From Bacteroidales bacterium (lineage in GTDB: Bacteria > Bacteroidota > Bacteroidia > Bacteroidales > UBA932): a stretch of 64,000 bases of DNA. A program made the translations under genes and the position numbers. Shown piece by piece: positions 39,887 through 61,010 of this stretch; position 1 is the first letter of the stretch; each line of letters begins with the position of its first letter. Under the pieces are notes generated by a model. The model worked only from the letters and a program-made list of their open reading frames with translations. It searched no databases and was not told the origin of the DNA. Location of the stretch: positions 1 to 64,000 of the forward strand of contig JAFYUS010000030.1 in the NCBI GenBank assembly GCA_017549505.1. Reading direction: 5' to 3'.

Positions 39887-40651
39887 CTATCTTTCAAGCC
39901 ATGAGAGGAAGTCGTCGACTCTCGAGCGGCTTACCGTCATCTCGAAAGGTGCATCAGGCTTTGATACTATCTTCAATCGGCTTCCTGCCTGTTTTATGAT
40001 GCTTGAAATGGCATTCATCGATATTATGCATCCTCGCGAGATCCTGAAGAACTTCTCCGGATCCAGTTCCTCTACCATCACGTCCAGAGACGTGTCGATG
40101 ATGTATTTGTCTCCCTTGAATGTAATCAGATAGTTGGTCTTCTCTTCAGAGTAGACATAAGCGATTTCTGCTGTAGGTACAGGGACGATTCTGTCATTGA
40201 ACCTGATTATAAACCTCTCCTTGTATTCCTTCTTCGGAGCAGCATTCCCTCCTATGGCTTTCATCAGGGCTTCCACATCCACTTGTCCTCCGCTCATGCG
40301 GCAACGTGCGACGGCCCTCTTGAGCGAGGATGCGTCTATCGGCTTGAGCAGGTAGTCGATGCTTCCTGCCTCGAATGCCTTTATCGCATAACTGTCATAT
40401 GCTGTGGTCATGATGACCTTGGCCTTCACTTCGATCTGGCGGAATATCTCGAAGCACTCGCCGTCCGCAAGCTCCACGTCCATGAATATGACGTCTGCAT
40501 GGTTTCCAGGGTCAGCGAGCCAGCTGACCGTGCTTTTTACGGAGCTTGACGTACCTACGACCTCCATGTCCGGGAAGTTCTGCGTAAGGGTTCTTATAAG
40601 GCTCTTCTGAGCCATTATCTCGTCTTCCACTATCAGGACTTTCATTGCCAT
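39887..40651 (-). CDS. LytTR family response regulator
   Basis: A 254-residue two-component regulator. The receiver domain (3-120) has the acidic pocket in IVEDE, the phosphorylated Asp D58 (FMDVELADG), TTAYDSY and the Lys of LLKPI. The C-terminal LytTR DNA-binding domain (about 150-252) has FIIRFNDRIVPVPTAEIAYVYSEEKTNYL-type strands and ends RSRVDDFLSWLER. LytTR domains bind pairs of short direct repeats about two helical turns apart; such repeats occur upstream of two glucan transcription units in this window. It is co-transcribed with the kinase gene (gap 3 bases). ATG 40645 (MKVLIVEDE) is an equally good start. Confidence 0.94.
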   Translation of the reverse strand: MAMKVLIVEDEIMAQKSLIRTLTQNFPDMEVVGTSSSVKSTVSWLADPGNHADVIFMDVELADGECFEIFRQIEVKAKVIMTTAYDSYAIKAFEAGSIDYLLKPIDASSLKRAVARCRMSGGQVDVEALMKAIGGNAAPKKEYKERFIIRFNDRIVPVPTAEIAYVYSEEKTNYLITFKGDKYIIDTSLDVMVEELDPEKFFRISRGCIISMNAISSIIKQAGSRLKIVSKPDAPFEMTVSRSRVDDFLSWLER

Positions 40652-40654
40652 ATG

Positions 40655-42004
40655 TTATAATAAAGGTAAGGTTACACAATAATCATTCTCTGTCTGTTCG
40701 ATAGTAATTGATTTGCCTGACAGGTCCATGTAAAGTTGTCTGATATACTTCTGTCCAAGACCTGTCGAGACGCTTTTGGTCACTTTCGGTACTATGTTGT
40801 TTCGCACATGTATATTGCCTTCATCTGCGGTAATCTCTATCCTCAACGGCTTTTCAGTGCTTACTGCATTGTGCTTTGTCGCGTTCTCTATAAGCAGCTG
40901 GATGGAGCAAGGAGGCACAAAGCGGGCCAGCTTATCCTCAGGGACATCGATCGTCACTTCGAATCCTTCAGGAAAACGGACCTGAAGGAGGTCTATATAC
41001 AGACGGACGAACACAAGTTCGTCGCGCAGCGGAACGATTTCCTCATCTTCGCTCTTGATCATGTACCTGTATATGCCGGCAAGCTTGTGGGTATAGATGC
41101 TGGCCTGCTCGTTCTTCTCTTCGCAGATGAGGCAGTCCAGGATGTTGAGGGAGTTGAAAAGGAAATGAGGATTGACCTGTCTCTTGAGCTTCAGGTAACG
41201 GTACTGAGCCATGTTTGCCTTTTCTCTTTCCGACTGCATCTCACTATGCGTCGTGAGTGCGTAGTTGATCATATATACGATGCAGTATACCGTTATCTGG
41301 AGTATCAGCGAGACGATGGCCACAAGCATGAAGTTCTCATCTTCCACACCGACAAGGAAAGTTTCCATAAGTGTGGCCAAGGCCATGAATCCTATGAACA
41401 GGATTATCGTACTGAGTCTGGATGCGGAGTCCCCGCGTGTTCCTACCGTTCTGATGAACAGGATGTTGACGCAGGTCAGGATGATAAGGGAGAAGGAGTT
41501 CGTCATCACCTTTCTTATCATCTCGAATATGGCGTCCTGTTCGAAAGGAGTCCTTGACAGGAATACGACGATAAGGATTCTCAGGATGAATATTCCAGAT
41601 GCTATGAGCAGAATCCACTTCATGTAAGGAGTCGACTTGATGTTCACGTTCTCGACTTCCTTCTGACCGAATATCTTGGTTATTCCTACGATGCTCCATC
41701 CGAGGATTTCAGTGGTGATGACGGTGGAAAAGCAATGTACCAGATACTCCGAAGCCATGAATGAGCCGAGCACGTTAGCTCCGAAGGTACCGATGACGAA
41801 ACCGAGGATGTTGACGATTATGACGACGATTGCGGTGAACTCGATCTTCAGGTCCATCTTCATGCTTATGACGAGGGCCATGGCCATCGTCAGCACTGTC
41901 AGGAGAATCTGGTCATCTGCTCCCGCCAGCCGGCATGCCAATGCCACGGCTGCATGGAGCAGGGCGAATATGTGTATGATCCAGGGTAAGCCTATAGATT
42001 TCAT
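40655..42004 (-). CDS. LytS-type sensor histidine kinase with eight membrane helices
   Basis: A 449-residue kinase (from MKSIGLPW). About eight membrane helices fill residues 5-245, with no large periplasmic domain. A short coiled linker leads to the His_kinase domain: H280 in QVNPHFLFNSLNILD, the N box QLLIENATKHN, and a reduced G box STGLGQKYIRQLY. The ligand is probably sensed within or close to the membrane; nothing shows what it is. It forms an operon with the LytTR regulator and is divergent from the glucan MFS-Sus operon. Confidence 0.93.
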   Translation of the reverse strand: MKSIGLPWIIHIFALLHAAVALACRLAGADDQILLTVLTMAMALVISMKMDLKIEFTAIVVIIVNILGFVIGTFGANVLGSFMASEYLVHCFSTVITTEILGWSIVGITKIFGQKEVENVNIKSTPYMKWILLIASGIFILRILIVVFLSRTPFEQDAIFEMIRKVMTNSFSLIILTCVNILFIRTVGTRGDSASRLSTIILFIGFMALATLMETFLVGVEDENFMLVAIVSLILQITVYCIVYMINYALTTHSEMQSEREKANMAQYRYLKLKRQVNPHFLFNSLNILDCLICEEKNEQASIYTHKLAGIYRYMIKSEDEEIVPLRDELVFVRLYIDLLQVRFPEGFEVTIDVPEDKLARFVPPCSIQLLIENATKHNAVSTEKPLRIEITADEGNIHVRNNIVPKVTKSVSTGLGQKYIRQLYMDLSGKSITIEQTENDYCVTLPLL

Positions 42005-42032
42005 ATTTGATACCTTCTGCACTAAATCGGAC

Positions 42033-42164
42033 CGAAGTTAGCAATTTTGCGCTGATATTCCAATTTTGCTGCTTTGTTCGTCTTGAAAAAACGACCGTTC
42101 GTCGATTTCTTCATGCAGTTCGTCATTATTATAATAAAGGTATAAATGTTAATGATTATTTTCG
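42033..42164. promoter_or_regulatory. LytTR-type triple direct repeat and divergent promoters
   Basis: GTTCGTC occurs at 42076, 42097 and 42118, exactly 21 bases apart. The second copy in context (ACCGTTCGT) fits the LytTR consensus [TA][AC][CA]GTTN[AG][TG] fully; the third (GCAGTTCGT) at eight of nine positions. An A/T-rich stretch follows, then TATTTTCG (42157-42164), a variant of TAnnTTTG, 46 bases before the MFS gene. On the minus strand TAACTTCG (42040-42033) faces the kinase gene. No -33 TTTG is seen at either, fitting an activator-dependent promoter. Confidence 0.7.
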
Positions 42165-42209: not shown

Positions 42210-43508
42210 ATGCAAAAAACGAAACTTACCTTCTGGCAGATGTGGAACATCAGCTTCGGATTCTTCGGAGTTCAGATAGCGTATTCCCTTCAAAGTGCCA
42301 ACATCAGCCGCATTTTCGCGACTCTGGGTGCGGATCCGCATGACCTCAGTTTCTTCTGGATCCTCCCTCCTCTGATGGGACTTATCGTGCAGCCGCTTGT
42401 AGGAAAGTACAGCGACAGGACATGGACCCGCCTTGGAAGACGTATTCCTTATCTCTTCCTCGGATCGATCATCGCAGTCCTTGTCATGTGCATGCTTCCT
42501 AATGCCGGAAACTTCGGTCTCGCTGTAAGCGGAGCAATGATCTTCGGACTTATCTCCCTGATGTTCCTCGATACATCGATCAACGTTGCCATGCAGCCGT
42601 TCAAGATGCTTGTAGGTGACATGGTGGGCGAGAATCAGAAGGCGCAGGCTTATTCTATCCAGAGTTTCCTCTGCAACGCAGGAAGCCTCGTGGGATATCT
42701 TTTCCCTATCATCTTCGCATGGATCGGAATCGCTAACGTAGCTCCTGAGGGACAGATCCCTGATACAGTGAAATATGCATTCTACATCGGTGCTGCCATC
42801 CTTATCCTCTGCGTTCTCTTCACTACCTTCAAGGTAAAGGAGATGCCTCCGAAGGAATACGCCGAGTTCCATGGTGTGGACCAGTCGAAGAAGGAAGAGA
42901 AGGCTCCCGGAATGTTCACCCTTCTGAAGAAGGCCCCTGCAACATTCTGGACAGTAGGTCTCGTACAGTTCTTCTGCTGGGCAGCCTTCCTTTATATGTG
43001 GACATATACAAACGGAGCTATCGCCGATACAGTATGGGGTACTACCGACGTAAAGTCTGAAGGCTATCAGGCTGCAGGCAACTGGGTAGGCGTCCTCTTC
43101 GCGGTGCAGGCTGTAGGATCCATGATCTGGGCTCTCCTTATCCCTAAGTTCAAGAACATCAAGACTGCGTATGTAGTCAGCCTCCTCGTGGGTGCAGCCG
43201 GCTTCGCATCTGTGTTCTTCATCCATGACCAGTATCTCCTCGTCGCTTCGTTCCTTCTTATCGGTGCGGCTTGGGCAGCTATGCTGGCTCTTCCTTTCAC
43301 ACTCCTTACCAACTCGCTTTCAGGCGAGCACATCGGAACATACCTCGGTCTGTTCAACGGTACCATCTGTCTTCCGCAGATCGCTGCCGCTGCCTGCGGA
43401 GGACTCGTTCTCAAGATGGTAGGAGGCGCACAGGTGAGCATGTTCCTCGTCGCAGGCGTGCTTCTCGTACTCGGTGCGGTTGCAGTACGCTTCGTGAAGG
43501 CTAAATAA
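42210..43508 (+). CDS. MFS sugar transporter, SLC45/maltose transporter-like
   Basis: A 432-residue inner-membrane carrier with 12 helices. FWQMWNISFGFFGVQIAYSLQSANISRIF, LPPLMGLIVQPLVGKYSDRTWTRLGRRIPYL and MLVGDMVGENQKAQAYS are the motifs of the glycoside-transporting MFS group that includes SLC45 sucrose carriers and Bacteroidota maltose carriers. It would bring maltose or malto-oligosaccharides from periplasm to cytoplasm, the step after SusC import. It is the first gene downstream of the putative LytTR sites and lies 67 bases before susC. Confidence 0.9.
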   Translation: MQKTKLTFWQMWNISFGFFGVQIAYSLQSANISRIFATLGADPHDLSFFWILPPLMGLIVQPLVGKYSDRTWTRLGRRIPYLFLGSIIAVLVMCMLPNAGNFGLAVSGAMIFGLISLMFLDTSINVAMQPFKMLVGDMVGENQKAQAYSIQSFLCNAGSLVGYLFPIIFAWIGIANVAPEGQIPDTVKYAFYIGAAILILCVLFTTFKVKEMPPKEYAEFHGVDQSKKEEKAPGMFTLLKKAPATFWTVGLVQFFCWAAFLYMWTYTNGAIADTVWGTTDVKSEGYQAAGNWVGVLFAVQAVGSMIWALLIPKFKNIKTAYVVSLLVGAAGFASVFFIHDQYLLVASFLLIGAAWAAMLALPFTLLTNSLSGEHIGTYLGLFNGTICLPQIAAAACGGLVLKMVGGAQVSMFLVAGVLLVLGAVAVRFVKAK

Positions 43509-43575: not shown

Positions 43576-46566
43576 ATGAATAGAATCAAGACACTATGCG
43601 CATCCTTCGTGCTCTCATGCATCATGGGTGTGTCTGTATTCGCCCAGGGCGGATACGAAGTGAAAGGAGTAGTTGTTGACGCAATCGGTCCTGTTATCGG
43701 TGCCACAGTCATCGAACAGGGTACCACAAACGGTACTTCGACCGGTCTCGACGGCGACTATATCCTTAAAGTTTCTAGCGCTGACGCAGTTGTAGAGATC
43801 AGCTGCATCGGTTATGCGTCACAGACTTTCAAGGCATCTGAACTGCCTGCAACTGTTACTCTCGGAGAGGATGCTCTCTTCCTCGATGACGTTGTCGTTA
43901 TCGGTTACGGTACAGTGAAGAAGGGTGACATGACAGGATCGGTAGCCACTGTAAAGGCTGACGAGATCAACAAGGGTATGATTTCATCTCCAGCTGACCT
44001 CCTCAAGGGTAAGTCTGCCGGTGTGGTTGTAACTCCTGGTTCAGGACAGCCTGGTTCAGGTTCTACAATCCGTATCCGTGGTGAGGCGTCAATGCATAAT
44101 TCAGACCCTCTCATCATCGTTGACGGCCTTCCTGTAAGTAACGATGGAATCAGCGGTATGGGTGATGTGCTTTCATCAATCAACCCTAACGATATCGAGT
44201 CATTCTCAGTACTCAAGGACGCTTCTGCAACTGCAATCTACGGTTCACGCGCATCTAACGGTGTCATCGTGATCACAACAAAGAAGGGTTCGAAGACTAT
44301 GAACGGTGTTCCTCAGGTGAACTTCGACTTCCAGACATCTGTCAGCCACGTTTCTGACTATGTTGACGTAATGGATGCCGCTACTTTCAAGGCATTCGTT
44401 CAGTCGCAGGTTGACGCAGGTATCGTTGCGGCAGATGCAATGAATGCGATGGGCAATGCAGACACAAACTGGCAGAAGGAGATTTATCAGGTTGCTCCTT
44501 CATATGAAGGTAACCTCAGCCTCGCAGGCCGCGTAGCTCTCGGTGATACTGGTGTGCTTCCTTGGCGTGTTTCAGGAGGTTTCCTTTCACAGGACGGTGT
44601 CCTCAAGACTGACCATATGAACAGAGGAACAGTTTCTGTAAACCTCTCACCAGTCCTCTTTGACAACCACCTTACAGTAAACCTTAACGGTAAGGGTGTA
44701 TTCTCTGCAAACAATTGGGCAAATCAGGGCGCTATCGGTGCTGCAAACCGTATGAACCCTACACTTCCTGTATACGATGAGAAGGGTATCCATGGATATT
44801 ATACATGGTATTCACCTAACGGTTCTGTGAACACAATGGCAATCCAGAACCCTGTTGCTCTCCTCATGGACAAGACAGACAAGAGCTCTGCAAACCGTTT
44901 CATCGGAAACGCTCAGTTCGATTACAAGTTCCATGGTTTCGAGGATCTTCGTTTCAACCTCAACCTCGGTCTCGATTACGCTTCTTCAGGCGGATTCAGC
45001 TCTGCAAAGGAAGGATCTGAGCAGTCATTCCATGACACAAAGCAGTCAGGTTCAGGATATCGTTCAGACTATTCATATACACGTCTTGACCAGACTCTCG
45101 AGGCTTACCTTGCTTATGCAAAGGATTTCGGCAAGAACCACTTCGATGCTATGGCAGGTTACTCTTGGCAGCACTTCTATAACGAGTCTACTTCAGAGTC
45201 AAAGAAGCTCTCTGATGGTTCAGTTCTCGACGAGTTCAAGAATCCGAAGAGCGAACTCTTCCTCGTTTCATTCTTCGGTCGTGTAAACTACAGCTATGAC
45301 AACCGTTACATGGTTACTGCAACTGTACGTCGCGACGGTTCGTCTAAGTTCCAGGGCAAGAACAGATGGGGTCTTTTCCCTTCAGTAGCTCTCGGTTGGA
45401 ACATCTCTAACGAGGAGTTCCTTAAGGACAACGAAACTCTTACTACATTAAAGCTCCGTCTCTCTTGGGGACAGACCGGTAACCAGGCAGTTGTAGGAAA
45501 CTACGATTCACAGGCTACATACTTCAAGAACTATCTCGGTTCATACTACTATTTCGGTGGAAACCTCGTTTATCCTTTGACAGCACTCGGATACAATGCT
45601 GACCTTAAGTGGGAGACTGCTACTACTTGGAATGCAGGTCTCGACTTCGGTTTCCTTGAAGACAGAATCACAATGGGCCTTGATGTGTACAAGCGTCAGA
45701 TCTCTGACCTCATCAACCATATTCCTGTACCTGCACTCGGTAACCTTACAAACTACCTCAATACAAACATCGGTACTCTCGAGAGCAAGGGATTCGAGTT
45801 CGAGGTAAATGCGATGGTAATCGATACCAAGGATTTCACATGGTCTGTAGGTGGCAACGTGGCTTACAACAATGCTAAGTTCACCAAGCTTACAGCTTCA
45901 CCTAACGACAAGACAGGTGTAGAGACAGGTGGTATCTCAGGTGGTGTAGGTAACAACATCCAGATGCATCAGGTAGGTTTCCCTCCACGTGCTTTCTTCG
46001 TATACGAGCAGGTTTATGATAAGGAAGGACGTCCTATCGAGGGCGAATATGTTGACCGTGACGGTAACGGTGTAGTAAACAACAATGACCGTTACTTCTA
46101 CCACAAGCCATCAGCTGATGTAACCCTCGGTTTCAATACAACAGTTACTTATAAGAACTGGACACTCGCAGCATCAGGACACGGCAGCGTAGGCAACTGG
46201 GTATACAACAACGTTGCTTCTGACGGTGAAATGATTGCTGACTGCTGGACAAACAACTTCAACAGCAACCGTCTCAACTCAGCGGCTTGGTCAAACTTCA
46301 AGCAGGCTTGCTACCTTTCTGACTACTATGTAAGGGATGCTTCATTCTTCAAGATTGACAACATCACCCTCGGCTATACATTCCCTAGCCTCTTCAAGTC
46401 AGCAAAGCTTGACCGTTCACTCGGACTGAATGTGTTTGCAACTATGCAGAACGTAGCTACATTCACTAAGTATGACGGTCTCGATCCTGAGGTTTACAGC
46501 GGTATCGACAACCAGCTTTACCCACGTCCAAGAACTTATGTGCTTGGTGTTAAGTTCAACTTCTAA
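43576..46566 (+). CDS. SusC-like TonB-dependent outer membrane transporter
   Basis: A 996-residue outer-membrane barrel. Signal peptide to about residue 24 (SVFAQ), then the carboxypeptidase-regulatory-like domain (GVVVDAIGPVIGATV to ISCIGYASQTF). The TonB-box-like DDVVVIGYGTVKKGDMTGSV precedes the plug with NPNDIESFSVLKDASATAIYGSRASNGVIVITTKKG-type signature, and the barrel ends with PRPRTYVLGVKFNF. Paired with the SusD gene two bases later, it imports glucan oligosaccharides across the outer membrane with TonB energy. Codons (many GGT, CGT, CTC) look strongly biased by eye, suggesting high expression. Confidence 0.96.
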   Translation: MNRIKTLCASFVLSCIMGVSVFAQGGYEVKGVVVDAIGPVIGATVIEQGTTNGTSTGLDGDYILKVSSADAVVEISCIGYASQTFKASELPATVTLGEDALFLDDVVVIGYGTVKKGDMTGSVATVKADEINKGMISSPADLLKGKSAGVVVTPGSGQPGSGSTIRIRGEASMHNSDPLIIVDGLPVSNDGISGMGDVLSSINPNDIESFSVLKDASATAIYGSRASNGVIVITTKKGSKTMNGVPQVNFDFQTSVSHVSDYVDVMDAATFKAFVQSQVDAGIVAADAMNAMGNADTNWQKEIYQVAPSYEGNLSLAGRVALGDTGVLPWRVSGGFLSQDGVLKTDHMNRGTVSVNLSPVLFDNHLTVNLNGKGVFSANNWANQGAIGAANRMNPTLPVYDEKGIHGYYTWYSPNGSVNTMAIQNPVALLMDKTDKSSANRFIGNAQFDYKFHGFEDLRFNLNLGLDYASSGGFSSAKEGSEQSFHDTKQSGSGYRSDYSYTRLDQTLEAYLAYAKDFGKNHFDAMAGYSWQHFYNESTSESKKLSDGSVLDEFKNPKSELFLVSFFGRVNYSYDNRYMVTATVRRDGSSKFQGKNRWGLFPSVALGWNISNEEFLKDNETLTTLKLRLSWGQTGNQAVVGNYDSQATYFKNYLGSYYYFGGNLVYPLTALGYNADLKWETATTWNAGLDFGFLEDRITMGLDVYKRQISDLINHIPVPALGNLTNYLNTNIGTLESKGFEFEVNAMVIDTKDFTWSVGGNVAYNNAKFTKLTASPNDKTGVETGGISGGVGNNIQMHQVGFPPRAFFVYEQVYDKEGRPIEGEYVDRDGNGVVNNNDRYFYHKPSADVTLGFNTTVTYKNWTLAASGHGSVGNWVYNNVASDGEMIADCWTNNFNSNRLNSAAWSNFKQACYLSDYYVRDASFFKIDNITLGYTFPSLFKSAKLDRSLGLNVFATMQNVATFTKYDGLDPEVYSGIDNQLYPRPRTYVLGVKFNF

Positions 46567-46583
46567 TAATGAGACAAGTAAAT

Positions 46584-48263
46584 ATGAAGACATTGAAATA
46601 TATAATTGGTGCTCTTGTACTTGCTGCAGGTCTCACTGCATGCGTGGGTGATCTCGATGTAAAGCCGATTGACCCATCAATGAATACAGCAGACAAGGCT
46701 CTTGTAACAGAAGAGGACTATTTCTCTCTTCTTGCTCAGTGCTACACCGGTTTCGCGACCTCAGGTTTCAAAGGTCCTAACGGTGACAACGCAATCTCTG
46801 GTATCGATGGCGGTTTCAGCCAGTACTTCCGTGGACGTTACCACCTCAACGGCCTTACAACAGACGAGGCTGTCTGTGGTTGGAATGACCAGACTCTCCA
46901 GGACCTCCATGGTATGGCATGGACCACTACAGACGTATTTGTAGCGGCGTTCTATTATAGAATATTCTACCTGATATCAGCATTCAACGAGTTCATCCGT
47001 CAGGCTGACAAGGCGACTATCGAACTCCCTGAGAAGGCTCTCTGGATTGCAGAGGCTCGTACTCTCCGCGCATTCTGCTGGCTTGATGCTATCGACAACT
47101 ATGGTAATGTACCGTTCGCTGACGAGACAGCTGTCGTAGGTGCTGATATCCCTAAGCAGATTTCACGCAAGGACCTCTTCAACTATATCGAGTCAGAGTG
47201 TCTTGAACTCCTCGAAGGATCAGATCTTTATGAGGTTGGACAGAGTCCGTACGGACGCGTGAACAAGGGTACTGTAATCATGATTCTTGCTAAGCTTTAC
47301 CTTAACGCTGAGGTATATACCGGTACAGCAAAGTATCAGGAGTGTGCTGATGTTCTTGCAAAGCTCGATGGAAAGTACTCTCTCCACAACAAGTATCAGG
47401 AGCTCTTCCTTGCTGACAACCACAAGTGCACAGACGAGATCATCTGGTCTGTAGAGCAGGATGGTGACAATGTACAGAGCTATGGCGTGACAAACTACCT
47501 CATCTTCGCATGTACAGGTGGTGACATGGATACCAAGGAAATCGGTATCTCATCAGGTTGGGGTGGTCTCCGCACTACTCCTGAGTTCTACAAGAACTTC
47601 TCAGACAATGACACCCGTAAGCTTTTCTTCACAGAGAAGGAGCAGGAAGTTGTTCTCAAGAGGAACTATGATACTTATGTAGCTGACACAAAGAAGGCTA
47701 ATGAGGAAGGAAAGAAGAATGATCCTAAGTTTGAGGAAGAGAAGATCAAGACATATGAGGATTGGCTCGGTGAAGACAAGAAGTGGCAGCAGGCTGACAT
47801 CGAACTTGTAAGTGAGTTCACTCATGGTTACGGTATCATGAAGTTCAAGAACATCAACAGCGACGGTACCAAGGGTAAGGCTGAAGGATTCGTTGATACA
47901 GACTTCCCTGTATTCCGTTATGCTGATGCACTTCTCATGAAGGCAGAGTGCGCTAAGCGCGGTGCAACAGGCGTTGACGGTCTTGCTGCTTTCAATGCTG
48001 TACGCAAGCGTGCCGGTCTTTCTGAAGTTCAGGAGTACTCTCTTGAAAACGTTCTTCAGGAGCGCGCATGTGAGCTTTACATGGAGGGATGGCGTCGTTC
48101 AGACCTCGTACGTTTCGGTAAGTTCACTTCTGCAAGCAAGCTCTGGCAGTGGAAGGGTGGTGTAAAGGCTGGAAAGGGTGTTTCTGCTCACCTGAACCTC
48201 TTCCCGATCCCTTCAAATGACCTTAACGCAAACAGCAACCTTGTTCAGAACTCAGGTTATTAA
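46584..48263 (+). CDS. SusD-like glycan-binding lipoprotein
   Basis: A 559-residue lipoprotein (MKTLKYIIG start, lipobox LTAC). SusD-family TPR-like architecture: KALWIAEARTLRAFCWLDAIDNYGNVPF is the hallmark first part. The C-terminal segment RYADALLMKAECAKRG, followed by ELYMEGWRRSDLVRFGKF and FPIPSNDLNANSNLVQNSGY, is the family ending. It caps the SusC barrel and binds glucan. An ATG at 46569 would add five residues. Confidence 0.95.
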   Translation: MKTLKYIIGALVLAAGLTACVGDLDVKPIDPSMNTADKALVTEEDYFSLLAQCYTGFATSGFKGPNGDNAISGIDGGFSQYFRGRYHLNGLTTDEAVCGWNDQTLQDLHGMAWTTTDVFVAAFYYRIFYLISAFNEFIRQADKATIELPEKALWIAEARTLRAFCWLDAIDNYGNVPFADETAVVGADIPKQISRKDLFNYIESECLELLEGSDLYEVGQSPYGRVNKGTVIMILAKLYLNAEVYTGTAKYQECADVLAKLDGKYSLHNKYQELFLADNHKCTDEIIWSVEQDGDNVQSYGVTNYLIFACTGGDMDTKEIGISSGWGGLRTTPEFYKNFSDNDTRKLFFTEKEQEVVLKRNYDTYVADTKKANEEGKKNDPKFEEEKIKTYEDWLGEDKKWQQADIELVSEFTHGYGIMKFKNINSDGTKGKAEGFVDTDFPVFRYADALLMKAECAKRGATGVDGLAAFNAVRKRAGLSEVQEYSLENVLQERACELYMEGWRRSDLVRFGKFTSASKLWQWKGGVKAGKGVSAHLNLFPIPSNDLNANSNLVQNSGY

Positions 48264-48283: not shown

Positions 48284-49441
48284 ATGAGAAAACTTTATAT
48301 AATCGCAGCACTCTTCATTGGTGCCCTTGCGTTCTCTGCATGTGAGGATCAGGACATTACACCGGTTCTTCAGGACCCTACGACATTTGTTCTGAACACT
48401 CCTGCATATGTGAACGGTACATATGACCTTGCGAAGTCAACTTCGCTTGAGCTTACTTGTTCCCAGCCTGATTACGGCTTTACTGCCGCTACATCATACG
48501 CTGTCGAAGTGTCTTTGACAGGTAAATTTGATGGAGTTGAGTCAGCAAAACTCGGAACAACATATTCTACAGCAAGAATGAATGTAGACGCTGCTGAACT
48601 TGCAGCGGCTCTTACAGCTCTCGCTACAACAGCAGATCCTACTCTTACTGAAGAGGACTTCCCTATGGTTACAGAAGTACACGTACGTCTTGTAGCTAGC
48701 CTTACAAACAGCGGAAAGGGTGAGATCGCTTCAAATTCAATCGTCCTTCCTAACGTACGTCTCCACTTTGCTCTCCCTGCAGTGAACCTTCCTGAGAAAC
48801 TTTACCTCATCGGTCAGTGCAACGGTTGGGACTGGGGTGCTGCATACGACTTTGTCGATGCATATGACAACGCTACCAATACCGAGAAGAAGACATTCTG
48901 GAGACTTGCTTACCTCCCTGCAGAGGGCGGCCTTAAGCTTAACTTTGCAAAGGCATGGGACGGAAACGAAGTAGGATTCGCAGGTGTTAAATGTACTGAC
49001 AATGCTTCTGCAGGTGTAAAGGCTTCTGATGACGGCAACATCGTCGTGACTAACGGCGGATGGTACCTTGTTGTGGTAGACATTACTCTTGATGGAAGAA
49101 ATTTTGTATATAACGTACAGTTCAACGCTCCTAACGTTTACCTCATGGGTTCTAACGCACCTGTAAATGACTGGTCTGTTGCTGATGCTAACCTCTTTAC
49201 AGTTCCTGCAGACGCTGACGGTTCATTCGTATCTCCAGCATTCGCATACGATACTGACGGTGACGGTGGTGTACGTGCATGCGTAAGCATCGCAGGTCAT
49301 GACTGGTGGAAGACCGAGTTCATGGTATTCGACGGCGTACTCAAGTATCGTGCGACAGGCGGAGACCAGGAGCGTGTAAACGGTAAGAAGGGCCAGGTGC
49401 TCAAGATCAACTTCACTAAGGGTACAGGTTCAATCGAGTAA
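48284..49441 (+). CDS. SusE-like starch-binding lipoprotein
   Basis: A 385-residue lipoprotein (lipobox AFSAC). The N-terminal domain has the SusE/F form (DPTTFVLNTPAYVNGTYDL). Two carbohydrate-binding modules follow, marked by LYLIGQCNGWDWGAAYDF (about 165) and VYLMGSNAPVNDWSVADAN (about 283); their aromatic residues are the usual starch contacts. SusE holds glucan at the cell surface and affects the size of products taken up. Third in the SusCDEF-like row. Confidence 0.88.
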   Translation: MRKLYIIAALFIGALAFSACEDQDITPVLQDPTTFVLNTPAYVNGTYDLAKSTSLELTCSQPDYGFTAATSYAVEVSLTGKFDGVESAKLGTTYSTARMNVDAAELAAALTALATTADPTLTEEDFPMVTEVHVRLVASLTNSGKGEIASNSIVLPNVRLHFALPAVNLPEKLYLIGQCNGWDWGAAYDFVDAYDNATNTEKKTFWRLAYLPAEGGLKLNFAKAWDGNEVGFAGVKCTDNASAGVKASDDGNIVVTNGGWYLVVVDITLDGRNFVYNVQFNAPNVYLMGSNAPVNDWSVADANLFTVPADADGSFVSPAFAYDTDGDGGVRACVSIAGHDWWKTEFMVFDGVLKYRATGGDQERVNGKKGQVLKINFTKGTGSIE

Positions 49442-49462
49442 TTTTTAAAAATGATGACAATA

Positions 49463-50905
49463 ATGAAAAAGATAGCATTATTAAGCATTTTCGCAGGTCT
49501 TTTCTTCACTGCGTGCGTTGAGGGAGACTACGGCATCAAGCCTGTAGGTCCTCAGACAAACGGACAGGAGGATGCCGTGACATTCCCTACAGGACTGACA
49601 GCAGCAGCTGTCAGCCCTATCGACCTCGCTGCTGTTGAGGCTGATTCTGTTGCAATTGCTGCATATACTCCTGCAGAAGTTGCATTCGGTACAATCGACA
49701 ACTTCAGAATCGTAGTTGACGACACATATGTATTCAATGTAGCTGCAGACATGAAGGTTCCTGTAGAGGATCTTCAGAATATGGTAGTTGAGGCATTCAA
49801 TAAGCGTCCGACCGCAAGAACATTCGCAGCAGTCCTTGAGGCTGACGTGATGGTAGAGGGTCAGGCTTCTTATGTTGTTTCTCCTTCTTTTGACGTTGTA
49901 CTTACTCCAAAGGCTCCTTTCATCTCTTCAGGATATTATCTTATTGGTAATATGAATGATTGGAACACAGACAATGCTCTGAACTTCCCATTCAAGCACA
50001 GTGGCAAGGATGTTTATGAGGATCCTGTCTTCACAATCACATTCACTGCCGGTGCTGACTGCTACTGGAAGATCATCCCTCAGTCAAACTACGATGCAGG
50101 CAATGCATGGAACGAGGGAACTACAGGTGTCGTAGGTGTTGCAGTAGACGGTGATTCTGCTACTGAAGGAACTCTCGTTACAGAGAAGCCGCAGGCTGGT
50201 AAGATTCCTGCTGCAGGTACATATATGATGACCATCAACATGATGGATTATTCATACTCTATCAAGGCCCTTGCTGCTGAATACTACCTCGTTGGAGATG
50301 CTCCGTTCGCATGGAATGTGAATAACAAGACAAATCTGATGTATGCAGAGTCTGCAACAGTTCAGTCATATACAGGCCAGTTCAACGGAAACCTCAAGTT
50401 CATCAACGGCAACGATATGGGTTCAGACAATTGGAACGCATGTTATGGTACTCCTACTGATGGTGATACTTCTGTAAGCGGAAGCCTCCAGCAGAACGCA
50501 GGAGCCATCCACTCACCTGAAGCAGGTTATTTCACATTCAAGGTTGACCTTGATGCCATGACATATACATGGACAAAGCTTGAGAACCAGACTCCACAGG
50601 AGTATACTACAATCGGTCTTGTAGGCGCATTCAATGGTTGGAATCAGGCAGAGGATGCAAATCAGATGACACAGATTACTCCGCATAACTGGTTTAAGAC
50701 CATGACTCTTGCAGAAGGCGAACTCAAGTTCAATGCAAATAAGGAATGGACTATCAGCTGGGGTGGTGAGACTGACATTAATGTCGGCGACAACAACTAC
50801 GGTGTAACTACTACTGCAAACGGTAAGAACATATTTGTACCAGCAGGCACTTATGACATCTTCTTCAATGACATTACAGGACGCTTCGTATTTGTAAGCA
50901 AGTAA
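49463..50905 (+). CDS. SusF-like starch-binding lipoprotein
   Basis: A 480-residue lipoprotein (MKKIALLSIFAGLFFTAC). After an N-terminal Ig-like domain there are three binding modules, opening YYLIGNMNDWNTDNALNF, YYLVGDAPFAWNVNNKTNLM and TIGLVGAFNGWNQAEDANQM. Three modules match the SusF plan, two the SusE plan. Surface glucan retention is the likely role. A strong hairpin follows in the gap before the GH13 gene. Confidence 0.88.
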   Translation: MKKIALLSIFAGLFFTACVEGDYGIKPVGPQTNGQEDAVTFPTGLTAAAVSPIDLAAVEADSVAIAAYTPAEVAFGTIDNFRIVVDDTYVFNVAADMKVPVEDLQNMVVEAFNKRPTARTFAAVLEADVMVEGQASYVVSPSFDVVLTPKAPFISSGYYLIGNMNDWNTDNALNFPFKHSGKDVYEDPVFTITFTAGADCYWKIIPQSNYDAGNAWNEGTTGVVGVAVDGDSATEGTLVTEKPQAGKIPAAGTYMMTINMMDYSYSIKALAAEYYLVGDAPFAWNVNNKTNLMYAESATVQSYTGQFNGNLKFINGNDMGSDNWNACYGTPTDGDTSVSGSLQQNAGAIHSPEAGYFTFKVDLDAMTYTWTKLENQTPQEYTTIGLVGAFNGWNQAEDANQMTQITPHNWFKTMTLAEGELKFNANKEWTISWGGETDINVGDNNYGVTTTANGKNIFVPAGTYDIFFNDITGRFVFVSK

Positions 50906-50967: not shown

Positions 50968-53496
50968 ATGAAAAAGTATTATCATCTCATTCTTGCAGTA
51001 CTATGTTCTGCACTCTTGTTCTCCTGCAAGGAACCGGGTCCTGTAGACGAGCCGGTTAAGGAAGCAACGCTCAAGGTGGAGCCTACCCTTGTCAAATTTA
51101 CATCTGCTGCCGGTTCAAATACTATAAAGGTCACGACTGAGGCGTCTGCATGGAACGCTTCCGTAAAGGATGCTGCATGGCTCAAGATTTCTCCGGAAAC
51201 AGGCAACGCCAGTGCAGACGTCACTCTGACTGTAGAAAAGAACGAAGGAGCACGTCGTAGTGCGGTCGTCACTTTCAGTGCAGAGAATACCAAGGATGTG
51301 CAGATTACTGTGATCCAGGAGAAGGGAGAAGCTCCTGTTGAGAAGACAGGATTCTATTCCGATCCTGAAAAGCCGGATGCAGACCAGCCATGTACGCTCT
51401 ACTATAAGGCTGACAGGAACTCTCCGTTCTTTGACAAGAGCGGTGACCTTTATGCGCATATAGGAATCAACGAATGGTCCAATGTCCAGGCTGATTGGGG
51501 ACAGAATATCGATAAATGCAAGTTTCAGAAGACTGATACTCCTAATCTCTGGAAGTTGGAAATCACCCCATCTGTACGCTCATGGTTCGGTGCAGAGGAT
51601 GACGAAGTGTTCCGTATCTGCGTTGTTGTCAGGAATGCAGACGGTTCTGCCCAGACAGCGGATCTGTTTCTTGCCGTGGAAGACAGCAAGAATGCCTTTA
51701 CGCCTGATGCCGTGGTAGAGGAAACCCTTCCTTCGGGTGCTCAGCATGGTATCAACTATAATGCAGACGGTTCTGTAACATTCGTATTCTATGAGAAGGA
51801 CAAGAAGGGCAACAGATACGATTGGTGCTACCTTATCGGTGAGTTCAACGGCTGGGAGCGCAAGAGCGAGTATGCTATGAAACGTGACGAGGCGGCAGGA
51901 TGCTGGTGGATCACATGCAACGGCTTTGAGAGCGGAAAGGAATATATGTTCCAGTACATGACAGGAAATGATGATGTACGTCTTCGTCTCAGTGACCCAT
52001 ATTCTGAAATCACATATTCCGGAGATGACCATTGGATATCTACATCAACATATCCCGATATGAGGACATACCCTGCGCAGACAAGCGGTTATGTGTCTGC
52101 ATTTGAGATAGGCAGGTCTTCATATTCGTGGACAGACTTCGAGATTGAGGACAAGGATGACCTTATCATCTATGAACTTCTCCTTCGTGACTTTACGGAG
52201 AACGGAGGTAAGGAAGGCAATCTCAAGAACGCGATGGAGAAGCTCGATTATCTTGAGACTCTCGGTGTCAACGCTATCGAACTTATGCCTGTTCAGGAAT
52301 TTGACGGTAACGACAGCTGGGGCTACAACCCTAACCACTATTTCGCGATGGACAAGGCGTACGGTACACGTGAGATGTACAAGCAGTTTATCGACGAGTG
52401 TCACAAGAGGGGCATAGCCGTATTTATCGACGTCGTTTATAACCACCTTACAGGAAACAATGCATTCGACAAGATGTATTCTCTGAACATCAATCCGTTC
52501 TTCAATGAGGTGGCTCCGCATCCGTACAGTGTGTTCGAGGATATCAACCACGAGAACGAGGTGATTGTAAACCATATAAAGAGAAGTCTGGGATATCTCC
52601 TTACAGAATATAATGTCGACGGTTTCCGTTTCGACCTTACCAAGGGCTTTACAAATAACCAGTCGAACGAGTCTACCGCTTCCAATTATGATGCAGACCG
52701 TATAGCGATTCTCAAGGGATACAACGATTATATCAGAAGTATTGACCCTAAGGCTGTAGTGATTCTTGAACACTTCTGCTCAGATAGCGAGGAAAAGGAA
52801 CTTGCTGAAGCAGGAATGAAGGTCTGGAGAAATATAAACCATGCGTATGGTCAGGCTGCTCAGGGTACTAAAAGCAACAGCGGTTTCGGAGGATTGTGGA
52901 CAGGAAACAGCATTAAGTTTGGTGCATATGTAGGATTTATGGAAAGTCATGATGAAGAAAGGAACGCATACAGACAGAAGACTTATGGCGAGGCCGGGGT
53001 CAAGGGCAATCTCGAAATGATGATGAGACGTCAGGAACTCAATGCTGCATTCTTCCTCACTGTACCTGGTCCGAAGATGATCTGGCAGTTCGGTGAGCTG
53101 GGCTATGACATATCAATTGAAGAGGGTGGACGTACAGGTAGAAAGGCACCTAAGTGGGAGTACCTTGATGTACCGGAAAGAAAGGCGCTGTATGATACAT
53201 ACTGCAATCTTATCAAGTTCAGAAGGGATAATCCTGAGTTCTTCGATCAGACTGCATCATTCTCATGGAAGGTGGGATCGAACGACTGGGAGAACGGCCG
53301 TTTCATCACATGTACTGCAGGAAACAAGTCATTTGTTGTTGTCGGAAACTTCACTACCCAGGAGAAGACATTCACTGTTGAAATGCCAACCGATGGTTCA
53401 TGGGCAAACCAGTTCGATAAATCAGAGGTTTACACTGGTAAAAGTTTGAACATTACTCTTCCAGCAGGTGATTTCCGACTCCTTACGAATTTCTAA
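50968..53496 (+). CDS. BACON-GH13 alpha-amylase, surface lipoprotein (SusG-like role)
   Basis: An 842-residue lipoprotein (lipobox LLFSC, Cys 20). A BACON domain (about 34-115, ending QITVIQEKG) is followed by two beta domains; the second, YLIGEFNGWERKSEYAMKR, is like CBM48/E-set modules. The GH13 barrel starts near 395 (IIYELLLRDFTENGG). Catalytic residues: D556 (GFRFDLTKG), E601 (VILEHF), D662 (MESHDEER). The last motif departs from the NHD of classical amylases but is common in Bacteroidota members. It probably cuts surface-bound starch for SusC. A BACON domain may space the enzyme from the membrane or bind glycan. Confidence 0.92.
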   Translation: MKKYYHLILAVLCSALLFSCKEPGPVDEPVKEATLKVEPTLVKFTSAAGSNTIKVTTEASAWNASVKDAAWLKISPETGNASADVTLTVEKNEGARRSAVVTFSAENTKDVQITVIQEKGEAPVEKTGFYSDPEKPDADQPCTLYYKADRNSPFFDKSGDLYAHIGINEWSNVQADWGQNIDKCKFQKTDTPNLWKLEITPSVRSWFGAEDDEVFRICVVVRNADGSAQTADLFLAVEDSKNAFTPDAVVEETLPSGAQHGINYNADGSVTFVFYEKDKKGNRYDWCYLIGEFNGWERKSEYAMKRDEAAGCWWITCNGFESGKEYMFQYMTGNDDVRLRLSDPYSEITYSGDDHWISTSTYPDMRTYPAQTSGYVSAFEIGRSSYSWTDFEIEDKDDLIIYELLLRDFTENGGKEGNLKNAMEKLDYLETLGVNAIELMPVQEFDGNDSWGYNPNHYFAMDKAYGTREMYKQFIDECHKRGIAVFIDVVYNHLTGNNAFDKMYSLNINPFFNEVAPHPYSVFEDINHENEVIVNHIKRSLGYLLTEYNVDGFRFDLTKGFTNNQSNESTASNYDADRIAILKGYNDYIRSIDPKAVVILEHFCSDSEEKELAEAGMKVWRNINHAYGQAAQGTKSNSGFGGLWTGNSIKFGAYVGFMESHDEERNAYRQKTYGEAGVKGNLEMMMRRQELNAAFFLTVPGPKMIWQFGELGYDISIEEGGRTGRKAPKWEYLDVPERKALYDTYCNLIKFRRDNPEFFDQTASFSWKVGSNDWENGRFITCTAGNKSFVVVGNFTTQEKTFTVEMPTDGSWANQFDKSEVYTGKSLNITLPAGDFRLLTNF

Positions 53497-53535: not shown

Positions 53536-55935
53536 ATGAAACTGAATTTAAGCATCGAATACAGGACAAGCTGGGGCGAAGAGATCGTCCTCTGTCTTGG
53601 TGGAAAGCGTTACCCTCTCGCATATGTAGCTGAGGGTATATGGCAGGGCGAGGTCGCTCGTTTCAATCCTGCCAAGGCTTCCGAGTATACATACGAAGTC
53701 GTGCGCGACGGTGTAACCGTCCGCACGGAATGGAAGAAGCACCTTCTTGTGCTTCCGGAGGGTACAAAGGCCAAGGTTGTGAACATCTATGACAAATGGA
53801 ATGACCGTCCGGCTGATTCTCCATTCTATTCATCCGCATTTACAGATGCGATCTTCGGCAGAAAGGCAGCCAAGGCTGCTTCTGCCGAAGGAGCGAACGT
53901 CGTTCTTCAGGTGGCTGCGCCATCCCTTCGTCCGAACGAAGTTCTCGCCCTTGCCGGCAGCGGCAAGGCGCTTAAGGAATGGACCAAGGTCATTCCTTTC
54001 GATGAGACCAATTTCCCTGTATGGACTCTCGCCCTTAATGTTACCGAGCCGTTCTCATACAAGATCCTTGTAGCTGACAAGAAGACTCTTGCTCCGGTTG
54101 CATGGGAGGATGGTGAGAACAGGTGGTTCCTCAATGTCCCTGAAAAGGATGAAGTTACAGTAGAGGCGGACGCTCAGGTACGTTTCAGCGGACGTGACTG
54201 GAAGGGAGCGGGTACAGCGATACCAGTATTCTCTCTCCGCACCGAGGACGATTTCGGAGTAGGTGAGTTCTACGATCTCAAGAAGATGGTGGACTGGGCT
54301 GCCGCTACAGGCCAGAGCATTCTCCAGCTCCTTCCTATCAACGATACTACAATGCTCCATACATGGGAGGATTCGTATCCATACAACCCTAACTCGACAT
54401 TCGCACTTCATCCTCAGTTCCTGCATCTTCCTGCAGTGGGCGTGAAGGTCGATGAGGAATACAAGGCTCTCCAGGCAGAACTCAATGCTCTCGAGCAGAT
54501 TGATTATGAGCGCGTAAACAATCTTAAGACAGAGCTTCTGCGCAAGGCTTATGAAAAGACTTTCAAGAAGCTTTCGGCGACTGAGAAATATCAGCAGTTC
54601 GTAGAGAAGAACGGTTTCTGGCTTCTTCCTTACGCTGCTTTCTGCGTACTTCGTGACCAGAACAGCACACCTGACTTCACACAGTGGAAGGGATATGCAA
54701 AATACAGCAAGAAGAAAGTTGCAGCGTTCTGCGAGGAAAACAGGAAAGACATTGACTTCTGGTGCTTCGTTCAGTACCACCTCGACCTCCAGCTTTCGGA
54801 AGTATGCGCATATGCACACTCGAAGGGTGTGATCTTCAAGGGAGACCTTCCTATCGGAATCAGCCGTACCAGCGTCGATGCATGGCTCTACCCTGAACTC
54901 TTCCATATGGATTCACAGGCGGGTGCACCACCTGATGCATTCTCTGCTGACGGTCAGAACTGGGGATTCCCGACATACAACTGGGAAAAGATGGCAGAGG
55001 ATGACTTTGCATGGTGGAAGGCTCGTCTTGCAAAGATGTCCGAGTACTTCGATGCATTCCGTATCGACCACATCCTCGGATTCTTCCGTATCTGGGAGAT
55101 CCCTATGTGGACAAAGAGCGGTCTCAACGGTTACTTCAACCCTGCACTTCCATTCCCTGCACATGAACTCCAGAGTCAGGGCTTCGATGTAAACGACTTC
55201 GACCTCTTCCTCATGGACCCACGTCAGGAGGGATACTACCATCCGAAGATCGGTGCACGCGATACCCATTCATACCGTTGTCTCGACGCATATCGTCGCG
55301 CTGCGTTCGACCGTCTCTATGACGACTTCTTCTATCGTCGCAACAACGAGTTCTGGAAGGACAAGGCTATGATGAAGCTCCCTGCTCTTCTCGATTCGAC
55401 AGGAATGCTTGCCTGCGGAGAGGACCTCGGAATGATTCCGGCAACAGTACCTCAGGTGATGTCTGACCTCAGAATCCTTTCTCTCGAGATCCAGCGCATG
55501 CCTAAGTCTGTTCATGACAACTTCGCTAACCCTGCATGGTATCCTTACCTTTCAGTTTGTACCACTTCGACCCACGACATGAACCCTATCCGTGCATGGT
55601 GGGAAGAGGATCGTCAGGTTACAGAGCAGTTCTGGCATGAGATGCTCGGCGGTCAGGGTGATGCTCCATACTATTGCGAGCCATGGATCTGCCGTCAGAT
55701 CCTCGACCAGCACCTCTGGTCACCGGCTATGCTGACAGTACTCCCTCTTCAGGACTGGCTCTCGATGGACCCTGCACTCCGTCGCCAGAACCCTAACGAA
55801 GAGAGAATCAATGTCCCTGCAAACTCACGCCACTACTGGCGTTACCGTATGCACCTTACAGTAGAGAAACTTGCCGCAGCAAAGGACTTCAACGAAACCC
55901 TCACCGGCATGATCTCCGCTTCCGGCAGAAAGTAA
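53536..55935 (+). CDS. malQ: 4-alpha-glucanotransferase (GH77) with N-terminal starch-binding domains
   Basis: A 799-residue cytoplasmic protein (no signal peptide). Two CBM20-like domains occupy about 1-235, as in plant DPE2 and Bacteroidota amylomaltases. The GH77 domain starts near FSLRTEDDFGVGEFYDL. Catalytic residues: D511 (DAFRIDHILGFF), E629 (CGEDLGMIP), D681 (STHDMNPIRAWW). It transfers glucan segments between maltodextrins and releases glucose, processing sugar brought in by the MFS carrier. It may have its own promoter; a type A hairpin follows it. Confidence 0.95.
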   Translation: MKLNLSIEYRTSWGEEIVLCLGGKRYPLAYVAEGIWQGEVARFNPAKASEYTYEVVRDGVTVRTEWKKHLLVLPEGTKAKVVNIYDKWNDRPADSPFYSSAFTDAIFGRKAAKAASAEGANVVLQVAAPSLRPNEVLALAGSGKALKEWTKVIPFDETNFPVWTLALNVTEPFSYKILVADKKTLAPVAWEDGENRWFLNVPEKDEVTVEADAQVRFSGRDWKGAGTAIPVFSLRTEDDFGVGEFYDLKKMVDWAAATGQSILQLLPINDTTMLHTWEDSYPYNPNSTFALHPQFLHLPAVGVKVDEEYKALQAELNALEQIDYERVNNLKTELLRKAYEKTFKKLSATEKYQQFVEKNGFWLLPYAAFCVLRDQNSTPDFTQWKGYAKYSKKKVAAFCEENRKDIDFWCFVQYHLDLQLSEVCAYAHSKGVIFKGDLPIGISRTSVDAWLYPELFHMDSQAGAPPDAFSADGQNWGFPTYNWEKMAEDDFAWWKARLAKMSEYFDAFRIDHILGFFRIWEIPMWTKSGLNGYFNPALPFPAHELQSQGFDVNDFDLFLMDPRQEGYYHPKIGARDTHSYRCLDAYRRAAFDRLYDDFFYRRNNEFWKDKAMMKLPALLDSTGMLACGEDLGMIPATVPQVMSDLRILSLEIQRMPKSVHDNFANPAWYPYLSVCTTSTHDMNPIRAWWEEDRQVTEQFWHEMLGGQGDAPYYCEPWICRQILDQHLWSPAMLTVLPLQDWLSMDPALRRQNPNEERINVPANSRHYWRYRMHLTVEKLAAAKDFNETLTGMISASGRK

Positions 55936-55971
55936 TCAAAATACAAAACGTTGATTTTCAGCGTTATCAGT

Positions 55972-56005
55972 AAAGTGCGTGCTCCCTTTAGGGAGCACGC
56001 ACTTT
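55972..56005 (+). repeat. type A hairpin, copy 3
   Basis: A perfect 15 bp stem (AAAGTGCGTGCTCCC and complement) with loop TTTA, 36 bases after the malQ stop. Compared with the other copies one stem base pair is swapped (C-G becomes G-C), both sides changing. No T-run follows. Confidence 0.8.
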
Positions 56006-56120
56006 GTGTAAGTTGCTGTGTTGCAGGGTTTTGTGATTTGCGCTGTTGATTCTCTAGGTTTGGTCCGAGGATTGCCATAGGTCCGTGTGATAATTTTAGA
56101 ATAATTATAAACGGACTTAT

Positions 56121-59100: not shown

Positions 59101-59165
59101 GAATAGACAACACTATGTGGCCTCGTCCACGCACATGGTCACTTCGCATAAACGTAAACTTCTGA
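56121..59165 (+). CDS. second SusC-like TonB-dependent transporter
   Basis: A 1014-residue paralogue of the SusC at 43576. Signal peptide to about residue 23 (FASAQ), regulatory-like domain with the shared EISCIGYASRTF, then DEIVVIGYGTVKKDDLTGSVSAIKA and NPNDIESFTVLKDASSSAIYGS; the end is WPRPRTWSLRINVNF. Close similarity of both ends suggests a duplication followed by divergence of the barrel loops, so the glucan taken up may differ (for example branched dextrins). Codons are visibly less biased than in the first copy. TAATTTTA (56091-56098) is a weak -7 candidate. SusD follows after four bases. Confidence 0.94.
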   Translation: MDDFIKMCIALALSCAGGDFASAQEGYIVSGMVEDGSGPVAGAAVVELGTSNGTSTDLDGMFSLRVAGPQAEVEISCIGYASRTFVASQIPKVITLMEDSEFLDEIVVIGYGTVKKDDLTGSVSAIKAEDINRGAVTNTQDMLKGKIAGVLITPGDGGPGSGSRIRIRGSASLNASNDPLIVIDGVPVAQGAGGAMSNPLDLLNPNDIESFTVLKDASSSAIYGSRASNGVIIITTKKGIGSRPQVSYTGSFSLQNVHKKVPVMSPGELMDFYARTYPEGTPTGDRIKEIQGTSQTDWQDLIFRTAFSTEHNVSMRGNYSSMMPYRASISYSGQQGTLHESRYDRGTIELSASPEFLDKHLTLNANVKGVYSYSDYSDGGTVGKAAFFNPTANPYWLTADNTIDYTTTNGFWNYGNGRGDAFSPNTLVGPSPLSMLYDSQSDAKSSRFIGSLTATYKVHGLEALSLNVSAGLDFTETRSYSGVRPGSFQAYTDTENLGVGQYTRGKVVSRSQVFEAYAAYKEIWGIHSLDAMAGYSWQNNWSGNRYINYFNITDKPNLLPGQTVDSRYTWSNTENYLVSFYGRVNYSIDSKYVFTFTARGDGSSKFAKDYRWGFFPSGAFAWNMKNEPFLKDVKEVSALKLRLSAGLTGQQDGIGNYAHLARYNIYIDSYHKYDMGAGNYMGMLGPQAYDPTIRWETTMTWNMGVDYGFFDNRLSGSIDAYVRNTRNLLNSVQIPMGSNFGNKLMTNVGSIRNQGLEFSINGIPVQTSDLSVHIGFNGTFQSTEFTKLNPTEDNNYYIETGTISKGTGGYLCRQMVGYAPYTYFLYKQKYDSDGRPLQNEFVDLDGDGTITQADRYMTGKSVSPKFYYGLNLKVTYKDWDFGLNGHGSAGTWVFNDFASANSTSSLDLNSGALPNQARLVRKTGFTAPNSGEQWYSDYFLENASFFRLDDLNAGYTFRGIGPWESDIRIGASVQNVFVLTGYTGMDPETVSENGIDNTMWPRPRTWSLRINVNF

Positions 59166-60835: not shown

Positions 60836-60871
60836 CAAACTGCGTGCTCCCCAAAGGGAGCACGCAGTTTG
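60836..60871 (+). repeat. type A hairpin, copy 4
   Basis: A perfect 16 bp stem (CAAACTGCGTGCTCCC) with loop CAAA, identical to A2 at 33597-33632. It lies 37 bases after the second SusD stop. No T-run follows. Confidence 0.85.
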
Positions 60872-60942: not shown

Positions 60943-61010
60943 GTTCGTCGAGTTCATTCCGGCAGTTCGTCGATTATATTATAATATATAATATAAAATC
61001 CGTATATTCG
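60943..61010 (+). promoter_or_regulatory. LytTR-type direct repeat and promoter of the pullulanase gene
   Basis: GTTCGTCG at 60943 and 60965 (22 bases apart), in contexts CCGTTCGTCG and CAGTTCGTCG that match the second and third repeats at 42097 and 42118. A very A/T-rich tract follows, then TATATTCG (61003-61010), 38 bases after the last repeat start, against 39 in the first promoter. The pullulanase ATG is 39 bases further on. A weaker GTTTCATC lies one more repeat length upstream (60921). Confidence 0.7.

Follow-up and report, generated by a model that had tools for sequence, protein, structure and literature searches.

Starch use by Bacteroidales is the textbook case of a PUL, and in Bacteroides its known control is exerted via SusR or via hybrid two-component systems. 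The locus described here raises the question of which regulator governs such a cluster when its first gene is faced by a divergent LytS/LytTR pair and short direct repeats lie in between. We looked for the answer in the window (the whole stretch of 64,000 nucleotides that was analysed) and in genomes of its relatives.

An earlier, sequence-only reading had reported three copies of GTTCGTC in this intergenic region, and they are indeed present on the forward strand at 42076-42082, 42097-42103 and 42118-42124, in an exact 21-bp period. The conserved unit is longer than that 7-mer, however. It spans 9 bp (CNRTTCRTC), so that the three units of array 1, which are predicted LytTR binding sites, occupy 42074-42082, 42095-42103 and 42116-42124; the first of them deviates by carrying T instead of C. 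Copy 2 together with its flank, ACCGTTCGT, fits [TA][AC][CA]GTTN[AG][TG], which we take to be the LytTR consensus. The -7 promoter consensus of Bacteroidetes is of the type TAnnTTTG, and a -7-like element, TATTTTCG (42157..42164, forward strand), follows copy 3 at 39 bp, counted from start to start. The proximity of repeats and element had been recognised before; 32 bases separate copy 3 from TATTTTCG.

Might the repeats have arisen by chance, or be the neutral trace that a tandem duplication left behind? With just three exact copies of 7 bp, and no report of a complete 21-bp tandem repeat at this place, the question is legitimate. Yet GTTCGTC-N14-GTTCGTC matches twice in the 64-kb window and never in 100 dinucleotide-preserving shuffles, and the whole assembly (2.13 Mb, 77.8% complete) yields only the same two exact matches, both in array 1. 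A pair of CNRTTCRTC units with at most one mismatch is found at two places only in the entire window, array 1 and a second array at a second promoter. The possibility that the array is a general repeat of the genome was also rejected: its 28-mer, allowing up to three mismatches, occurs at 281 places of the assembly, and the reversed control at more, 483.

The gene pair next to array 1 is encoded on the reverse strand. It consists of a LytTR response regulator with a receiver and a LytTR DNA-binding domain (39887..40651; Pfam PF00072 and PF04397, above cut-offs) and a LytS-type membrane histidine kinase (40655..42022; Pfam PF06580, 78 bits; start GTG at 42022 or ATG at 42004). The kinase His, the receiver Asp and the LytTR domain, which characterise the proteins of a LytS/LytTR two-component system, are all there. 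The receiver Asp, D58, is invariant in 22 sequences of relatives, and the phospho-accepting H280 of the kinase motif PHFLFN in 14 sequences. Because both residues are kept, a phosphorelay from kinase to regulator is likely. The window holds the two-gene form and not a CoxC-like fusion of membrane sensor and LytTR domain. The regulator does not qualify as an equivalog of E. coli BtsR (it scores 89 bits with NF008677, whose cut-off is 246), and the genome holds four further LytTR genes.

As for the sensory side, the kinase has seven hydrophobic segments; neither Pfam nor NCBIfam gave a sensor domain, and Pfam matched nothing in the membrane part. In an AlphaFold model built from 14 sequences (mean pLDDT 72, pTM 0.43) the membrane part is weak. 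Compared with solved structures, the model gave kinase-domain matches, the best being GanS (6swk), and a fold search with the weakly modelled membrane part gave no usable match. A profile of the LytTR domain found one weak match in the PDB, 3d6w, which is too distant for mapping base contacts.

The geometry of array 1 (9-nt unit, 12-nt spacer, 21-bp period) agrees with LytTR sites, for which repeats of 9-11 nt with spacers of 11-13 nt are described (PMC4847170). To this extent the repeats look as the sequence-only reading had supposed, but direct repeats with a 21-bp period are no hallmark of LytTR: the motifs predicted for hybrid two-component systems of Bacteroides are direct repeats too, and their distance averages 21 bp (PMC3878776). 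For this reason the case must rest on co-occurrence of array and regulator, not on geometry.

Downstream of array 1 lies, judging by gene content, what is likely a starch-utilization (Sus) cluster, all on the forward strand. Unit 1 opens with an MFS sugar transporter (42210..43508; Pfam MFS_1/MFS_2, NCBIfam GPH_sucrose below cut-off). It continues with a SusC-type TonB-dependent transporter (43576..46566; TIGR04056 above cut-off), a SusD-type lipoprotein (46569..48263; Pfam SusD_RagB, NF033071 SusD below cut-off), a SusE/SusF-type outer-membrane protein (48284..49441; Pfam SusF_SusE and SusE), a gene in SusF position (49451..50905), a GH13 enzyme with a BACON domain (50968..53496) and a GH77 4-alpha-glucanotransferase with CBM20 (53536..55935). 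Pfam bears out the neighbours as first named (LytTR, LytS, MFS, SusC, SusD, SusE-type and GH13), but the gene in SusF position is without a Pfam match; the GH77 gene had not been listed. A strong hairpin at 55968..56008 (forward strand, -29.5 kcal/mol, z -8.6) likely ends unit 1. Then follow a second SusC-type gene (56121..59165) and a second SusD-type gene (59170..60798), and no array was found before this pair. Another strong hairpin (60836..60871, forward strand, -31.4 kcal/mol, z -8.7) probably terminates the second SusCD unit. Both hairpins come from folding, and a T-tail terminator scan flagged neither.

Array 2, the other one in the window, lies about 19 kb from array 1 and is absent from the sequence-only reading. 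Its units on the forward strand are 60920-60928 (TGTTTCATC, weak), 60941-60949 and 60963-60971, with spacings of 21 and 22 bp; the corresponding 7-mers are TTTCATC at 60922 and GTTCGTC at 60943 and 60965. A -7-like element, TATATTCG (61003..61010, forward strand), begins 38 bp from the start of the last unit, against 39 bp from last unit to TAnnTTCG element in array 1. Array 2 precedes unit 2, whose first gene encodes a type I pullulanase of family GH13 (61050..63002, forward strand; TIGR02104, 744 bits, cut-off 504.5). The next GH13 gene (63111..64000, forward strand) runs off the window. Beyond it, on the same contig and strand, come a neopullulanase/cyclomaltodextrinase-type GH13 gene and a GH97 gene. 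A long imperfect hairpin (63010-63075, -50 kcal/mol, z -7.5) separates the pullulanase gene from the next GH13 gene and is possibly an attenuator or processing site.

With SusC/SusD, GH13, GH77, pullulanase, neopullulanase type and GH97, the region has the composition of a Sus-type PUL. Given GH13, GH77, pullulanase and GH97, starch or maltodextrin is the putative inducer. Hybrid two-component PULs are recognised by an AraC-type regulator gene in the locus, and none was found on the window's contig. Elsewhere in the window, the reverse strand at 28346-31906 encodes a protein of 1186 aa that contains a weak GLUG motif besides several BACON domains.

Conservation of array 1 was assessed at loci picked without using the motif, by kinase homology in the genus and by LytTR homology in named genomes. 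The genus part comprises 18 of the best 20 kinase loci (L019 and L020 are out, having no recognised MFS start), the named part 15 of 80 loci, those with MFS upstream of the kinase (L082, whose MFS gene lies on the opposite side, is out). A [GA]TTC[GA]TC pair at 20-22 bp precedes 28 of these 33 loci with at most one mismatch and 32 with at most two. The misses at the stricter threshold are L018, L081, L085, L087 and L090; the upstream region of L087 falls inside a gene and was scored as a miss. On the opposite strand the numbers are 0/33 and 1/33, respectively, and dinucleotide shuffles give means of 0.14 (largest 2) and 1.48 (largest 6). Exactly matching pairs are 21 bp apart in 21 cases, 22 bp in one, 42 bp in four and 56 bp in one.

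The best LytTR protein matches among named records are Bacteroidales MAGs, including Candidatus Cryptobacteroides caccocaballi and several labelled Alistipes sp., so that the window probably stems from a member of the Bacteroidales of this sort. MFS and SusC matches are within reach in 16 of the 18 named loci L074-L091 (LytTR identity at least 45%), and no MFS gene lies beside the 62 other named LytTR loci. At E <= 1e-68 the LytTR protein occurs in at least three of 393 genomes of the order, two of the genus, including the window's, and one of another family; in the latter, the surrounding 9 kb contain no MFS or Sus matches.

When 66 arrays were aligned on their last unit, C was found at -2 in 64 and at -23 in 61 of them, although these positions played no part in selecting the arrays. 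The spacers are not conserved, with the exception of an A/T-rich patch. Three units are present in 40/64 arrays. TAnnTT[TC]G peaks at 39 bp (20/66 arrays; 28/66 at 38-40 bp), against 13 matches over all other offsets scanned; it is missing at 35-42 bp in 38/66. Array 2 is conserved as well: before 14 pullulanase orthologues of at least 71% identity with readable upstream regions it appears in 7 at up to one mismatch and in 12 at up to two, and 10 of the 14 have the -7-like element at a distance of 38-39 bp. Array 2 is missing at two close orthologues, G031 and G082, and no array precedes four pullulanase homologues of at most 55% identity. Position, strand and phase are kept in diverged genomes while spacers are not. 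Together with the shuffles and the second array, the conservation across the 33 loci, and across the 96 described below, led us to reject chance or simple tandem duplication, an origin that is now barely conceivable.

A wider scan of 61 genus genomes for CNRTTCRTC-N12-14-CNRTTCRTC gave 42 matches in 27 genomes, and the reversed pattern gave 5. Of the 42, 22 stand upstream of an MFS homologue and 4 upstream of a pullulanase orthologue; among the others are matches inside genes and a few intergenic ones. In G025 (L276, 1957-1987) an intergenic array with 22-bp spacing precedes an MFS-GH130-GH92 run, which suggests that in this relative the motif may also govern a mannoside cluster. G079 carries two three-unit arrays with identical spacer sequence (L269, 2041-2091, and L268, 1986-2036), one of them before a TauE/SafE-type gene; these are possible further regulon members. 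In G071 (L277, 2084-2114) an intergenic array lies before a gene for a predicted lipoprotein of 362 aa.

The co-occurrence of array and LytTR gene was then followed at MFS genes. MFS homologues exist in 99 of 151 genus genomes, and the upstream region was analysed for 97 of them, all but G114 and G065, whose matches lie at the end of a contig; 9 of the 97 homologues have 42-45% identity only. The region in G079, cut at 283 bp by the contig end, is uninformative and was set aside, which leaves 96 loci. The array, at no more than one mismatch, is present before 64/79 MFS loci with LytTR alongside versus 1/17 without it (Fisher p 6e-9), and on the opposite strand before 0/97. The 71 loci with a complete two-component set (receiver, LytTR, kinase) divide into 56 with the array at up to one mismatch, 12 with two mismatches and three without it (G109, G160 and G098). 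As a control, 4/742 stretches of 350 bp from the same DNA pass at up to one mismatch. Since 75/742 pass at up to two, the two-mismatch class weighs little alone. Lack of conservation among orthologous loci had been set beforehand as the outcome that would speak against a regulatory site; with 28/33 loci and with 64/79 versus 1/17, the proposal withstood it.

No LytTR match was present in the stretch read at 18 loci: the cut G079, 16 loci without an array, and G158 with one. G158 has four LytTR matches elsewhere, two of them on the same contig, where another array also precedes a SusC-like gene. On that contig (L263), some 24 kb away from the MFS promoter with its array, a tandem of two LytTR genes and kinase genes adjoins GH77; the locus is rearranged, and its regulators are possibly duplicated. 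The 16 array-less loci comprise 11 from genomes without a LytTR match at E <= 1e-20, four with weak matches only, and G071. The last has a LytTR orthologue of 61% identity on another contig and no array at its MFS gene, which speaks against a perfect rule. On a tree of MFS proteins (79 of the 96 loci), the no-LytTR state needs nine changes, at least five on well-supported branches. In the only five independent contrasts that the tree allows, a number too small for significance, the array follows the regulator in 4.5 of 5 on average, for which the sign test gives p of at least 0.0625. Loci without LytTR also occupy other gene neighbourhoods, so array and regulator may have been lost jointly with the intergenic region.

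These data also bear on whether the arrays belong to some other regulator, which might be a hybrid two-component system of the AraC type or one of the genome's remaining LytTR proteins. The 21-bp average of hybrid system motifs mentioned above fits such a view, and there are candidates enough, since besides the further LytTR genes the assembly encodes 10 AraC-type (PF12833) domains, three of them in frames of more than 1300 aa. But no AraC-type domain was found on the window's contig, the array tracks the adjacent LytTR gene, and it persists where the neighbour has shrunk to a LytTR domain, either alone or fused to a membrane part. We consider control by another regulator very improbable.

We propose that the adjacent LytTR regulator probably binds the arrays and activates both units of the Sus cluster. 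The seven-segment membrane kinase would sense a glucan-derived signal and phosphorylate the receiver of the regulator at the conserved D58. LytTR domains would then occupy the CNRTTCRTC units, which follow each other at two helical turns and lie on the same face of the DNA. Bound to array 1, the regulator would activate unit 1, from MFS through SusC, SusD, SusE, the gene in SusF position and GH13 to GH77, and array 2 would bring unit 2 (pullulanase, GH13, neopullulanase type, GH97) under the same control. What the analysis establishes is the sequence, the gene content, the conservation, the co-occurrence with LytTR and the existence of natural one-component versions; binding, activation, phosphorelay, signal and substrate are inferred. 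The array had already been taken as a LytTR site controlling the MFS-Sus operon. Co-occurrence upholds this as a prediction, but the putative regulon is wider, with a second unit that has its own array.

The direction of control deserves separate attention. In the general layout of Bacteroidetes promoters, the last unit would be located just upstream of the expected -33 element, which suits an activator. The same sites could, however, serve a regulator that represses or switches both ways, the signal relieving repression. CoxC, a membrane LytTR protein, is described to repress via three direct repeats that overlap the -35 box (PMC11347149), and only 54 bp separate array 1 from the first possible start of the divergent kinase gene, so autoregulation is possible. 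In both arrays, though, about 32 bp lie between the end of the last unit and the -7-like element, which places the unit upstream of the core promoter and not over it. No good match to a -33 element was seen by eye at the window promoter, which again suits an activated promoter, and most LytTR regulators are described as binding upstream of -35 and activating (PMC11347149). Repression is unlikely, and activation by the adjacent LytTR regulator is the reading we retain.

In some relatives the regulator has a simpler form. In G077, G074, G080, G068, G108, G144 and G117 the gene facing MFS encodes a membrane sensor fused to LytTR: proteins of 233-374 aa with 3-6 hydrophobic segments followed by LytTR and no receiver or kinase match. 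Neither MHYT nor another Pfam domain was found in the six of seven fusions that were scanned, LytTR being their sole match. In G112 the gene facing MFS encodes a bare LytTR domain of 116 aa. The array is kept in 7/7 fusion loci and in the single bare LytTR locus. The fused layout, at 52% identity or more, is represented by about 19 clusters in a large protein collection, one of them named LytTR family transcriptional regulator.

On a tree of LytTR domains (79 rows and 116 columns, which is few for so many rows), the fusion label needs four changes, at least three on well-supported branches. A single origin of all eight one-component forms was rejected (AU p 0.016). A single origin of the six longer fusions gave p 0.022, for a group chosen after the tree was seen. 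We infer that the two-gene form is ancestral because the majority of loci have it. On balance, we favour a history in which one line of Bacteroidales placed its starch system under a LytTR switch that acts through a 21-bp array of fixed layout, followed by at least two collapses into a membrane one-protein regulator, the array and Sus genes being kept. The array would then be read by the LytTR domain, and the phosphorelay would be dispensable.

There are two important aspects of these suggestions. Firstly, a LytTR array at two Sus promoters would be a new and easily recognised control route, and CNRTTCRTC every 21 bp a motif for finding regulons in mostly uncultured gut bacteria. Secondly, relatives that lack kinase and receiver but have the array pose the question of whether a two-component system can become a one-component one with its DNA code unchanged. 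If true, they form a natural series which shows that the LytTR domain reads the array and that the phosphorelay is dispensable.

The sequence-only reading knew of no described LytTR-controlled Sus locus, and a literature search likewise gave no LytTR-controlled SusC/SusD locus among the matches listed, subscription papers being mostly outside its scope. Features of known systems are compared here as given in the excerpted text of the respective papers. YpdA/YpdB and BtsS/BtsR of E. coli have in common with the window pair a membrane kinase, a LytTR regulator and repeats about two turns apart (PMC4847170). The gene that YpdB targets, yhjX, codes for an MFS transporter (PMC4847170), like the first gene of unit 1, and BtsS is a 7-transmembrane receptor (PMC10653868), which parallels the seven hydrophobic segments of the window kinase. 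In contrast to YpdB and BtsR, the predicted targets here are whole SusC/SusD glucan units, the repeats are three instead of two, and the site sequence is another.

Three direct repeats at about two turns, as in the window, are known from RcoM1, as a TTCNNGCA triplet at 12-13 bp, and from CoxC, at 18-21 bp intervals (PMC11347149). CoxC is, moreover, a membrane sensor-LytTR fusion like the seven relatives. CoxC and RcoM differ from the present systems in sensor domains and targets; CoxC represses, and the fusions described here are without MHYT. LytTR regulators annotated beside polysaccharide genes occur in Roseburia (Ros-7) and Butyrivibrio (PUL7, 21 and 33) (PMC5320581; PMC2914790). These loci belong to Firmicutes, Ros-7 has ABC and GPH transporters, and the excerpted text describes no binding sites. 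The SusR and hybrid two-component PULs of Bacteroides are also SusC/SusD-centred glucan clusters with direct-repeat sites, but their regulator family differs, and the distance between SusR motifs is 67 or 77 bp (PMC3878776). The excerpted text of that survey of SusR-like and hybrid regulons makes no mention of LytTR or LytR. Taken together, a known regulator type and a known locus type meet here in a new pairing, to which a repeated simplification of the regulator is added.
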